Positions 28,673-34,101 of a stretch of DNA of 42,235 nt are shown piece after piece (position 1 is the first letter of the stretch; each line of letters starts with the position of its first letter). This DNA comes from Microcoleus sp. LEGE 07076 (GTDB taxonomy: Bacteria; Cyanobacteriota; Cyanobacteriia; Cyanobacteriales; Microcoleaceae): contig NZ_JADEWV010000036.1 in assembly GCF_015207455.1 (NCBI RefSeq), forward strand, positions 1 to 42,235, written 5' to 3'. The notes beneath the pieces were generated by a model that had not been told where the DNA came from, ran no database searches, and was given only the letters and a program-made list of their open reading frames with translations. Made by a program: the position numbers and the translations under genes.

Positions 28673-29356
28673 TTAGACCCAACCAGGAAATTTTTCGCTC
28701 AAACTTTGAGCAAAATAATACTGACACCAAAATTCTGCTATGTCTAACAACATCGGTACAGACTCAGGAGTTATACCTGTCCCATACTGCGGGGCATAAG
28801 ATTCTATATATTCTCTAGCTAGTTTATAAACCCAATAGGGAAAATCTATGTCTGAGAAACAACGCAGTGCATAGTCTAATTTTAATAAATCTCCGCTGCG
28901 GACAAAATGTACTGTTGTCCAGTGAACATTCCGGCGGTCATCTCCTTGTAAACTATCAATTATTCGCAATAAATTATAGATAGATTGCTTGCCTTCATTA
29001 CTAGGATTTTCTAAGTAAACTTCCATCAGCGCGATCGCCTCATCAACTACCTGTTTGTGCTGTTCCCACTCTGGCTCGGCGTAATGTTCGGGACAAGTAG
29101 CCTGATTCATCTGGTGTTGTAGTCTTCGAGCCATGTATAGCGCAAACTTTTCGGCGGCAGTTCGATCGTCGGCGCACAAACTTTTGATACTTGTCAGCCT
29201 GGTTATGGATATAGCAAATACAGTTGTTTCAGCTTCCTTGGCTGTTTTAACCCATTTTTTAATTTTATTGGCAATATTAGCTTCTGGACTTTTGGCTTTG
29301 ATGTCAATCAATATAATACACAAGTTTTCTCGTCTGTGTCTTGGTGTATTGTACAC
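28673..29356 (-). CDS. Unrecognised soluble protein, about 227 residues
   Basis: The frame is open from GTG at 29356, with no upstream ATG; an internal ATG is at residue 75. The sequence is helix-rich with a charged central block (DDRTAAEKFALYMARRLQHQMNQATCPEHYAEPEWEQHKQVVDEAIALMEVYL) and a C-terminal aromatic stretch DFPYWVYKLAREYIESY. I recognise no family. The N-terminal 60 residues are less convincing, so the true start is uncertain. It and the next two genes share a strand; a hairpin (29465-29496) separates it from its upstream neighbour. It could be a lineage-specific or accessory protein, or a partner/immunity-type protein; that is only a guess. Confidence 0.6.
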   Translation of the reverse strand: MYNTPRHRRENLCIILIDIKAKSPEANIANKIKKWVKTAKEAETTVFAISITRLTSIKSLCADDRTAAEKFALYMARRLQHQMNQATCPEHYAEPEWEQHKQVVDEAIALMEVYLENPSNEGKQSIYNLLRIIDSLQGDDRRNVHWTTVHFVRSGDLLKLDYALRCFSDIDFPYWVYKLAREYIESYAPQYGTGITPESVPMLLDIAEFWCQYYFAQSLSEKFPGWV

Positions 29357-29512: not shown

Positions 29513-30058
29513 TCACTCGCGAGCAATAATCAAACAATCACTGTCAACTTTCGCCAGAAAATCTGGAAATGCTGATGTGGGCTTCCCATTCTTGTCTACA
29601 ACTCTGCGGAGTGTATAGCCTGGTTCAGGAGCTCTGCCGAAAAACGAGTTTGTGCGATTCCAGATATCTCCATTCGGAATGTTCGGATCTCGATCGATCA
29701 AAAAATCCATAATCCACGGCGGTACAGACAATCCAAACGCGATCGGCGTGATGTGCCCGTGCTGCAAAGTTGCATCCGAGAATTGGAACAAGTAGGTGAA
29801 GCGAGAAAATTTGACGGCATAAAGTAACATCCGTCCCGCCATTGATGAATGAAATGTCCAGACAACTGGTTCATAAATCCGCAGCAATAATGTTAGTTTT
29901 TCAGGATTCCATTCTGAATTGTACATCGTCAGACAATAGTCTGGCAAAATATTCCCGTCCATAAAGAAGATACCTTGCAGGGCTTCGGGGAATTCGGGTG
30001 GATGTTCTGCTTTCATCCAAGTTGCGATGTCTTTTAGTTTCTTTGTTTCGATTAACAT
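29513..30058 (-). CDS. Unrecognised soluble protein, 181 residues
   Basis: ATG at 30058, with GAGG 12-15 bases upstream. The protein has no signal or membrane segment and alternates hydrophobic strands with aromatic-rich loops: WNPEKLTLLLRIYEPVVWTFHSS, GRMLLYAVKFSRFTYLFQFSDATLQHGHI. A charged C-terminus follows (DFLAKVDSDCLIIARE). I know no family for it, and no catalytic motif is evident. It lies between the other unrecognised protein and the P450, all on the minus strand, but a 143-base gap with its own inverted repeat separates it from the P450, so it may be transcribed separately. Confidence 0.65.
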   Translation of the reverse strand: MLIETKKLKDIATWMKAEHPPEFPEALQGIFFMDGNILPDYCLTMYNSEWNPEKLTLLLRIYEPVVWTFHSSMAGRMLLYAVKFSRFTYLFQFSDATLQHGHITPIAFGLSVPPWIMDFLIDRDPNIPNGDIWNRTNSFFGRAPEPGYTLRRVVDKNGKPTSAFPDFLAKVDSDCLIIARE

Positions 30059-30200: not shown

Positions 30201-31559
30201 TTACTGCTGCGAATTAGGTGCCGATCGCCGAACTTTACCAACGGTACTAATGACATCCACCAGCATCTTCAGTGCGATATCTTTAGCGGGGCAAATCCGT
30301 CCCGCACTTCGATCGCCCACCGCATGAAAACCCATATGATAAGGACACAGATTCTCGCGCTTAGCGTTGAATTCGTACACCGTAGAACCCCAGAAACTGC
30401 CGTCTAGCAGCCCCAGACTGAGCGGTATCAGTACCTTGGTGCCGGCGGGGAAAGTGCGCTGTTTGCCCGCTACCGTTGCGGTGAAGGGCTCTGTGGCAAC
30501 TCGGTGCGTGGCGCTGACGGGAGCCCAGAGGCGGGCGCATTCCAGCAGGAAAAGCTCGATCGACTGGCGATCGTCCAAATCGAGCTCGTCCCAAAACTCA
30601 GTCGGATTAATTTGGGCCGTCTGTGTTCCTTTATACGCCGGGAGAGGGCGGTATCCCATAGCCGTGTAGCCTAGGTGCAGGGGGCCTTGCAGTCCCGCTA
30701 TCCCCATAATCGCTGTCATCAGCTTTGCCAATTCCCGCCTAGTCATCCCGTTATTTTCCGAACTTTCCTCGAAGTCGGCTAAGGCGGGAGAATTTTCGTA
30801 GATAGTCGCCGCGCGCTCGATTAAAGCCGACAAATCGCCGTGTCCAAACAGGTTCAGGCTTTGCAGCAGGCTGCCGGCGACGGCGAAGTAGTGCGCGGGA
30901 CTTTGGCGGATGTAATGTAAATCGGTGAGAAGTTCGATCGCAGACTTGTCATCTGGGTTAATCCCAAAAATTACGTAGTGCAAATATGGAACTAAAAATC
31001 CCATCCAACCGCGCCTGACATCGGTAAAAAATGTTCCCCCCGCACCGTGCGGCATCTCGGTATAATCTGATGCTAGGCGTTCGAGCAACCGCCTGCTGAT
31101 TTCGTCTTCCTGGCGATCGGTTGTGGCGCTGTTGAAGAGATATTTTTGCATACAGCTTCGGAAGGCTGCGTGGTTGCTGCTACCGTCTGGTTCGCGATCG
31201 GACAAAGACAGCAGAAAAAGGTTCCTACCGCCGACATCTTGATTGGGGGCGCGATCGGGATCGAGCACAGAAGTACCCAGCCGCCATCCCCGCGCCTGGG
31301 GCGATGTGAGTGCTTCTTCGAGTGTTGCAAATTCTCCCATCACCACTTGTCCCGCACAGCAAAAATTAGCCCCGAAAGCCAGCCGTTTTATTTGCAAATA
31401 GGTGGGTTCGTTGGCAATTAAACCCTCAACAAGACTAATCATCGGCAGCATCGTTTTGCTGAGGCTTTCTTCCGGGTTTTCCAAAGTCCAAGTCTGAAAC
31501 TCATGCAGTGCCGGGTTCATCAGCGGTGAGAAAATGCTATCTAAATTTAGGTTCATCAT
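30201..31559 (-). CDS. Divergent cytochrome P450 (CYP74-like heme loop)
   Basis: A 452-residue protein with the C-terminal hallmarks of a P450. The K-helix ExxR is Glu340-Cys-Ala-Arg343 in LLECARLWAPVSATHRVA. It is followed by FPAGTKVLIPLSLG (meander-side strand) and a heme-ligand segment GFHAVGDRSAGRICPAKDIAL, with Cys423 as likely thiolate ligand. The loop between the Phe and the Cys is about five residues longer than the usual FxxGxRxCxG, and C-P-A-K-D resembles the C-A-G-K-D of CYP74 enzymes (allene oxide synthase, hydroperoxide lyase). The I-helix AGxxT motif is not obvious (MGIAGLQGPLHLG), as in CYP74. A strong GGAGG ribosome site precedes tandem ATGs at 31559 and 31556. No lipoxygenase or redox partner gene is adjacent. 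Confidence 0.72.
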   Translation of the reverse strand: MMNLNLDSIFSPLMNPALHEFQTWTLENPEESLSKTMLPMISLVEGLIANEPTYLQIKRLAFGANFCCAGQVVMGEFATLEEALTSPQARGWRLGTSVLDPDRAPNQDVGGRNLFLLSLSDREPDGSSNHAAFRSCMQKYLFNSATTDRQEDEISRRLLERLASDYTEMPHGAGGTFFTDVRRGWMGFLVPYLHYVIFGINPDDKSAIELLTDLHYIRQSPAHYFAVAGSLLQSLNLFGHGDLSALIERAATIYENSPALADFEESSENNGMTRRELAKLMTAIMGIAGLQGPLHLGYTAMGYRPLPAYKGTQTAQINPTEFWDELDLDDRQSIELFLLECARLWAPVSATHRVATEPFTATVAGKQRTFPAGTKVLIPLSLGLLDGSFWGSTVYEFNAKRENLCPYHMGFHAVGDRSAGRICPAKDIALKMLVDVISTVGKVRRSAPNSQQ

Positions 31560-32174: not shown

Positions 32175-32657
32175 TTAGAACAGACCCAGCGTGAAAGATT
32201 TGTCGATCGGGAAAATAGCACCAATACCCAACCACAAAGTTACCGCAGTTCCCAATAGGAAGACTGTAGTAGCAACAGGGCGGCGGAACGGATTTTGGAA
32301 CTTGTTAACGCTCTCGATAAACGGAATCAAAATCAAGCCAATGGGAACACCGGCCATGCAAGCAATACCCAACAATTTGTTAGGCAAAACGCGCAGGAGT
32401 TGGAACACAGGCCACAAATACCATTCCGGCAGAATTTCTAGCGGAGTAGCAAAAGGATTGGCAGGTTCGCCAACCAATGCCGGGTCTAGTACGGCCAAAC
32501 CCACGCACAGAGAAATTGTTCCCATGATGACTATAGGGAAAACATAGAGCAAGTCATTGGGCCAGGCTGGTTCGCCGTAATAGTTGTGACCCATGCCCTT
32601 AGCGAGTTTAGCGCGTAGCGCTGGATCGCTCAAATCTGGTTTTTTGAGAATAGACAT
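32175..32657 (-). CDS. petD: Cytochrome b6-f complex subunit IV
   Basis: A 160-residue thylakoid membrane protein, exactly the family length. With PetB it forms the quinol-oxidising core of the cytochrome b6-f complex that links photosystems II and I. The N-terminus [41 protein letters not shown] is diagnostic. The conserved [13 protein letters not shown] (the PEWY motif of the Qo site) is at about residues 77-89, and three hydrophobic segments are visible. It is 182 bases downstream of petB on the same strand, the usual petBD order. The ATG at 32657 is preceded by AAGGAGAA, a strong ribosome site. Confidence 0.97.
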
Positions 32658-32839
32658 AGTTAGAGTGTTCTCCTTTTAGTTTTACCCGGGCATGGCATTC
32701 CGCTGTACTCGTTTGTCTGAATCAGCGGCGCGATCGCAGGAAGTATTGCTCGTAAATAAATATCATGAGTGATGAATTCTGAAATTTCAACCCAAAATTC
32801 AGCAGAGGGGCAAAAAATGCCGCCCCCACAACTCAAAAC

Positions 32840-33508
32840 TTACAACGGGCCAGAAATGCCTTGCTTGCGAATCATCAAGAAGTGAGCCAGCATGAAGACT
32901 ACAATCAGCCAAGGCAACACAAAAGTGTGCAAGCTGTAGTAGCGAGTCAAAGTGCCTTGACCGACGCTGACACCGCCACGCAGCAGTTCAACAAGTGTAG
33001 AACCGACAAACGGGATGGCTTCGGGTACGCCGGAAACGATTTTAACTGCCCAGTAACCGATTTGATCCCAAGGCAGCGAGTAGCCGGTCACGCCGAAAGA
33101 AACAGTGATGACTGCCAAGATTACTCCTGTCACCCAGGTTAATTCGCGGGGCTTTTTGAAGCCGCCGGTCAGGTAAACCCGGAAAGTGTGCAAAATCATC
33201 ATCAGTACCATCATGCTGGCAGACCAGCGGTGGATGGAGCGGATCAGCCAGCCGAAGTTGACCTCGTTCATCAGGTATTGCACTGAAGAAAAAGCTTCTG
33301 CTACCGTGGGACGGTAATAGAAAGTCATGGCGAAGCCGGTAGCAAACTGGATCAGAAAGCAAACTAAAGTAATTCCGCCCAAGCAGTAAAAGATATTGAC
33401 GTGGGGGGGTACGTACTTGGTAGTTATGTCGTCGGCAAGCGCCTGAATTTCCAGGCGTTCCTCAAACCACTGGTAGGTTTTTGAGTCGGTGATTTGTTTA
33501 GAAAACAT
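32840..33508 (-). CDS. petB: Cytochrome b6
   Basis: A 222-residue four-helix membrane protein carrying the b-type hemes of the b6-f complex. The frame is open for 19 codons further upstream, but [20 protein letters not shown] is the canonical start, giving the family length. Heme-ligand histidines are His93 and His107 in the second helix ([11 protein letters not shown]...ILHTFRVY), with the second pair near the C-terminus ([10 protein letters not shown]...[10 protein letters not shown]). Cys42 (VNIFYCLGG) is the covalent attachment site of heme c-i in b6-f complexes. Upstream gene of petBD; divergent from ctpA across about 590 bases. Confidence 0.97.
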
Positions 33509-34101
33509 GGAGCCAGAATTCCTAAAAGAATATTGCTGTGGTTGAGGTAAGCGGGCTGCAGCCACAATGTTTTTTTGTCGCCCCGCCCCGAGCAGCTTGC
33601 TTGAACTCGCAAATGGCTGAGGCTATTTTTAAATGGGGAGCTGACGAAAGGAACTATATGCAGGCGATATTGCCCGCGAGCGATCGGAAACTGGGCTGTC
33701 GCTTGTTCCTGCTCGCTGGCATTGCCCGATCGAATTCCAGACTATGATAAAAAATGTAACATAATTGCAGTGCAATTTTCACGTGCGCGATCGCTTTTGG
33801 CTGCCTCTCAAATAGCATTTTCTGCAAGCTCAACATCCGCCCCAAGCAGGCAGACAGCCCAGAGCCGAACCCGATACCGCAGTCGGGGTCTGTCAGGGGG
33901 TTCCGGGGTGGTAAATTTTAATATTCATGATAAAACTTCACTAATTGGGCGATGTAATGTTAAGTTAAAAAAATTTTTGTTGGCGGCGGACATTTGACGA
34001 ATCCTGAATGTCTGGGCGAAAGTTGACAGCGCAAAAGCTTGAAAGCCTACAAATTAAAAATACACCTGATGCAATACTTGCGTATCTTTTACAGAAACAT
34101 C
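33509..34101. other. Divergent petB / ctpA regulatory region
   Basis: 593 bases with no supported gene. It contains AT-rich stretches around 33750-33780 (TATCAT-like box for petB on the minus strand) and 33920-33990, and a GC-rich imperfect hairpin region at about 33870-33915 (CCGATACCGCAGTCGGGG). Both promoters should lie here. Confidence 0.45.

Follow-up and report, generated by a model that had tools for sequence, protein, structure and literature searches.

In the stretch of DNA analysed here (the window, 42,235 nucleotides), an open reading frame on the reverse strand (30201 to 31559, 452 aa, ATG start) encodes a divergent cytochrome P450, one of a group that we call family A, whose members are linked to lipoxygenase genes in many lineages. 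We consider it likely that this protein is a P450 with a thiolate-bound heme that, having lost the oxygen-activating acid-alcohol pair, would need no reductase to act on the fatty acid hydroperoxides formed by lipoxygenase, with a 181-aa barrel protein as its partner. Four observations form the direct basis of this reading: the P450 features of the sequence, the existence of a sister P450 family, the lipoxygenase linkage and a conserved partner. From them we infer the substrate, the reductase independence, the chemistry and the role of the partner.

The earlier note on this frame had described an ExxR motif, a heme cysteine at position 423, a loop with five extra residues and the lack of an I-helix AGxxT motif, and all four features were confirmed. 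Specifically, the ExxR motif reads E340-C-A-R343 (30531 to 30542, reverse strand, as are all positions in this gene), and the heme-binding loop reads F411-HAVGDRSAGRI-C423-PAKD (F411 to C423, 30291 to 30329, with the C423 codon at 30291-30293; FHAVGDRSAGRICPAKD holds this heme cysteine). The spacing from Phe to Cys is 12 compared to 7 in F-x-x-G-x-R-x-C, an extension of five residues that gives the loop the length of that of CYP152A1. The pattern [AG]Gx[DE][TS] had no match anywhere in the 452-aa protein, and in the alignment Q291-G292 (30684 to 30689) stood where ordinary cyanobacterial P450s have the acid-alcohol pair of the I-helix. The other rows of a 15-member family A alignment shared 56-94% identity with the window protein, and E340, R343, C423, Q291, G292 and R401 were invariant in all 15. 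The motif combination is weak by itself because a loose version of it was reached by 20 out of 5000 shuffles of the protein. The dN/dS ratios were about 0.12, 0.16 and 0.18 in three close family A pairs, and it is this conservation and purifying selection, not the motif combination alone, that confirmed the P450 feature as real. Upstream of the P450, the window carries petD- and petB-like cytochrome b6f genes, recognised by eye (32175-33565, reverse strand), and several loci of the Microcoleus type show the same order before the P450 (clusters c3, c2, c0 and c1).

When scanned alone, the window P450 had no Pfam or NCBIfam match at an E-value of 1. PF00067 was matched weakly by 10 of the 15 family A members (best 6e-4) and by all 10 scanned members of a distant sister family, family B (best 1.5e-20). 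Family B comprises 11 members, one of which (L213) was left out of the Pfam scan and of the trees because its frame extends into the gene for the lipoxygenase. Using hhalign, family A was connected to family B with a probability of 97% (E 1e-11, 370 columns), and between family B and a set of 31 ordinary P450 ORFs from cyanobacteria the probability was about 99% (98.8, E 9e-17); when the profile of family A was compared directly with these 31 ORFs, the probabilities were 82 in one direction and 89 in the other. The AlphaFold model of the window P450 was of low confidence (pLDDT 55, pTM 0.57), and in a Foldseek search with this weak model the best 50 of 204 matches were all P450s (TM 0.24-0.40). 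The identity of the window protein as a P450 is well supported, mainly through family B and additionally through its relatives and the weak fold model. Profile searches did not place it in an ordinary CYP family, the outcome that the earlier note had set against its own reading: across 388 genomes, with up to four candidates scored per genome, no ordinary P450 of a cyanobacterium was retrieved by the family A profile at E 0.01, and the best E-value in an hmmsearch of the 31 ordinary ORFs was 73. PDB rows for CCR4-NOT and the IP3 receptor (E 0.002-0.29) were dropped as partial matches to unrelated proteins. Family A is a real, conserved P450 lineage without a name in the family libraries used.

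The active site of this lineage departs from that of ordinary P450s. In the profile alignment (probability 82), the acid-alcohol E-T of the AGHET segment of ordinary cyanobacterial P450s corresponded to Q291-G292 in family A, and in the family B profile alignment to A-G; each replacement was present in every distinct segment printed for its family. In the P450 mechanism, the acid-alcohol pair serves to activate O2, and its absence therefore argues against an O2-activating monooxygenase. An ordinary monooxygenase, hydroxylating lipoxygenase products with electrons from ferredoxin, would be in line with membership of the P450 superfamily and with the ferredoxins that cyanobacteria have, but the lack of the pair from all printed segments of families A and B makes it quite unlikely.

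Family A genes were often found beside lipoxygenase genes. Outside family f1, to which the window belongs together with Microcoleus, Okeania and Trichodesmium loci, a lipoxygenase lay at most three genes from the P450 in 15 out of 19 loci and adjoined it on the same strand in 11 of the 19. The loci were L035, L036, L037, L038, L039 (same contig as L167), L168, L043, L165 (contig of L045), L166 (contig of L044), L095, L096, L097, L170, L161, L162, L163, L164, L169 and L171. The lipoxygenase label came from Pfam PF00305 in 13 of the 15 loci and from BLAST alone in L035, where the gene is split over two frames, and L037. No lipoxygenase was found near the P450 in L043, L163, L164 and L171, the last of which has a fragmented P450 at the end of a contig. 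Within f1, the lipoxygenase matches of 16 genomes of the window's genus and of six others lay on different contigs from the P450 or, in single-contig genomes, more than 1 Mb away; adjacency is possible in two f1 genomes because their P450 contigs are shorter than 5 kb. The genome of the window had one lipoxygenase match, a 567-aa ORF that contains HxxxxH and ends in Ile, located on a contig (C437) separate from that of the P450. Other lipid-related genes were present in some loci. A patatin-like phospholipase gene directly followed the P450 in L036 (7530-11657, BLAST) and L037 (7373-11179, Pfam) and is a possible candidate for the source of the free fatty acid substrate, and alpha/beta hydrolase genes were located between the P450 and the lipoxygenase in L162 (2562-3440) and L168 (8543-9439).

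The association extended to whole genomes. Lipoxygenase was present in all 36 genomes carrying more than a family A remnant (22, 3 and 11 in three sets). Family A was matched in 23 out of 98 genomes, and the 22 with more than a remnant all had a lipoxygenase, compared to 17 of the remaining 76 (39 of the 98 overall). Among 386 genomes of the phylum, nine matched family A and eight were kept; all eight carried a lipoxygenase, compared to 57 of the 386 overall. Similarly, lipoxygenase was found in 13 out of 13 further genomes, 11 with family A and two with family B; one of the 13, G630, has P450 pieces only. Fisher tests, all of which ignore phylogeny, gave 1e-11, 0.001 within the genus and 1.5e-7. 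In the incomplete genome G003, only part of the P450 is present, close to the end of a contig, and the lipoxygenase matches are weaker; a family A match in G064 was rejected as spurious (E 0.006, ten stops inside). In G034, a 50-residue P450 remnant was detected (locus L103, C217:223103-223252) and no lipoxygenase was found in the genome, a pattern that looks as if the P450 decays upon lipoxygenase loss. It is this gene context, in neighbourhood and co-occurrence, and not the motif, that supports the metabolism of fatty acid hydroperoxides proposed in the earlier note.

A second gene followed the P450. It lies 142 bases downstream on the same strand (29513 to 30058, reverse strand, cluster c1), encodes a 181-aa protein with a lipocalin-barrel-like model and is conserved with the lipoxygenase and P450 genes. 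In the window's genus, homologues were present in 15 of the 16 family A-positive genomes, with the G021 copy in two pieces and G003 lacking one, compared to none of the 13 negative genomes. In the 386-genome set, 18 genomes matched the 181-aa protein; 13 were left after dropping weak or broken matches (G044, G035, G301, G388 and G432), eight of them outside the genus, and in all eight the gene stood in a run of lipoxygenase, P450 B and 181-aa gene. The same order was found in 10 out of 10 family B loci (L159, L160 and L209-L216), with two P450 B genes in tandem in L211. The genomes with these loci belong to one other family, f33, which we presume to be Nostocaceae. Next to family A, the 181-aa gene adjoined the P450 in L043 and L161, and a match was found in 4 of the 13 further genomes, two of these being family B genomes and one (G543) matching through a fragment; family A is therefore often without the 181-aa protein. 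Judged by its conserved placement, we take the 181-aa gene to be a true partner of the P450.

For the partner, none of 20 members matched Pfam significantly, and a PDB profile search with its family found none at E 10. Its model (pLDDT 79, built from nine sequences) was nearest to lipocalins in Foldseek, including nitrophorin 4 and a leukotriene-binding lipocalin, with a best E-value of 0.012 (nitrophorin 4), none at 0.001, probabilities of up to 0.96 and a TM of about 0.4; low-probability rows for sliding clamps also appeared. From this predicted fold and the place of the gene, we guess that the protein may be a carrier or a cyclase. The suggestion that both neighbouring genes of no assigned function share the role of the P450 stood for the 181-aa gene, given the constant order in family B loci, and not for the next gene (28673-29356, reverse strand), which encodes a 227-aa protein with related ORFs in only three clustered loci and no sign of belonging to the pathway. 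Neither the P450 nor the 181-aa protein had a match in searches of plasmids. Promoter and terminator scans gave 10 hits against 6.0 (sd 2.6) expected and 5 against 4.3 (sd 2.2) expected, respectively, and no operon claim rests on these counts since they are near expectation.

Putting these elements together, family A P450s probably rebuild or cut fatty acid peroxides made by neighbouring enzymes. Lipoxygenase would make the fatty acid hydroperoxide, which the P450 would take over, splitting the O-O bond at its thiolate heme without a reductase. The resulting alkoxyl radical would rearrange to an aldehyde, as in a lyase, to an allene oxide or to an epoxyalcohol, and the 181-aa barrel protein may carry the unstable product or convert it further. 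More tentatively, a three-part cyanobacterial oxylipin pathway can be imagined, consisting of lipoxygenase, a non-CYP74 P450 and a calycin-like barrel protein by which the unstable product would be cyclised or protected. Such a pathway would have evolved separately from the plant route through lipoxygenase, allene oxide synthase and allene oxide cyclase, and would give jasmonate-like or volatile signals. If the hydroperoxide reading is true, family A would represent a further origin of hydroperoxide-metabolising P450s, outside CYP74, and families A and B would offer natural gene cassettes with an unnamed partner protein.

Two known P450 groups that act on peroxides were compared with family A. 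The CYP152 fatty acid peroxygenases (P450BSbeta, PDB 1izo) share with it the identical heme loop length and an expected substrate of the fatty acid type, and the family A loop aligned without gaps to that of CYP152A1. Family B reached an hhalign probability of 96% with CYP152A1, its profile retrieved CYP152A1 chains at 7.5e-6 among the best 60 of 91 PDB sequences, and one member matched the NCBIfam CYP152 model CypC at 2e-5, far under the cut-off and not as the best row. These similarities would fit a peroxygenase of the CYP152 kind that hydroxylates or epoxidises fatty acids with oxygen taken from H2O2 or from a fatty acid hydroperoxide. However, family A itself resembled CYP152A1 weakly over its whole length (45%) and occurs in a lipoxygenase context. 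CYP152 enzymes bind the carboxylate through an Arg of the I-helix, whereas no invariant Arg was present in family A residues 278-300. In addition, family B matched CYP74A just as well (96%) and ordinary P450s better (98.8%), and CYP152 was absent from the best 50 of the 204 Foldseek matches. Altogether, we regard this alternative as unlikely and retain the rearrangement or cleavage of lipoxygenase-made hydroperoxides as the preferred reading.

The CYP74 enzymes (allene oxide synthase, hydroperoxide lyase, divinyl ether synthase and epoxyalcohol synthase) resemble family A in lacking the acid-alcohol pair, in their extended heme loop and in working downstream of lipoxygenase, where gene context places family A. 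In the portion of PMC8124189 available, a catalytic Asn in the I-helix groove and a nine-residue insertion in the heme-binding domain are given as CYP74 features. Family A has IA(G/A)(L/M)QGPL as its I-helix segment, and no invariant Asn was present in residues 278-300, a helix covered by none of the computed alignments of family A with CYP74A; L164 alone has an Asn just before the IA. The insertion amounted to five residues, not nine, and the heme loop, called CYP74-like in the earlier note, has the length of that of CYP152A1. In the absence of the CYP74 Asn, another residue would have to support the hydroperoxide chemistry.

A genuine but highly diverged member of the CYP74 clan would account for the ERR triad (E340, R343 and R401), the PV kept after ExxR from the PPV motif (preceded by A, S, M, L or T), the CPGKD heme end resembling CAGKD and the presence of the Arabidopsis allene oxide synthase at Foldseek rank 9. 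Family B also matched CYP74A at 96% by hhalign, with CYP74A2 in PDB at 8.7e-6, although it was equally near to CYP152A1. In contrast, family A itself showed no significant profile similarity to the two plant CYP74A allene oxide synthases used (2.5 and 12%). Two quick trees were built with 17 or 14 of 37 family A members, 10 of the 11 family B members and part of the 31 ordinary ORFs, the second without CYP152A1 because the first, which included it, had long branches. Families A and B grouped together in both (SH-aLRT 96). Family A did not fall with CYP74A in the best tree, while the AU test, with two CYP74A sequences standing for the whole clan, did not reject that grouping (p 0.39); these trees left kinship with CYP74 unrejected without recovering it. 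By the features tested, CYP74 membership is not supported, family A is not filed there, and we consider a diverged CYP74 very unlikely. Most likely, family A works like the CYP74 enzymes, from which it also differs in being cyanobacterial, without being one by these features. The route looks separate from that of plants. The 181-aa partner has no sequence similarity to allene oxide cyclase (hhalign 0.13% with Arabidopsis AOC2).

Among the literature matches listed (titles and beginnings of abstracts, with subscription journals mostly outside the scope), no P450 beside a lipoxygenase was described in cyanobacteria, and the terms lipoxygenase, hydroperoxide, CYP74 and CYP152 were absent from the main text of a cyanobacterial P450 survey (PMC7014017) in a term search. 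A hydroperoxide lyase activity in Oscillatoria sp. (Andrianarison 1989, doi 10.1104/pp.91.4.1280) is cited in the part of PMC7570158 available; like the route proposed here, it belongs to a filamentous cyanobacterium and acts on lipoxygenase products. At a guess, a family A P450 may be the gene behind that activity, for which this P450 lineage would provide a direct candidate. To our knowledge, the gene for the 1989 activity has not been identified. According to the available parts of PMC8124189 and PMC13049297, Acaryochloris marina and Nostoc punctiforme possess an allene oxide synthase and a hydroperoxide lyase, which likewise are cyanobacterial heme enzymes acting on dioxygenase-derived hydroperoxides; those enzymes, however, are catalase-related, whereas the one encoded here is a P450.
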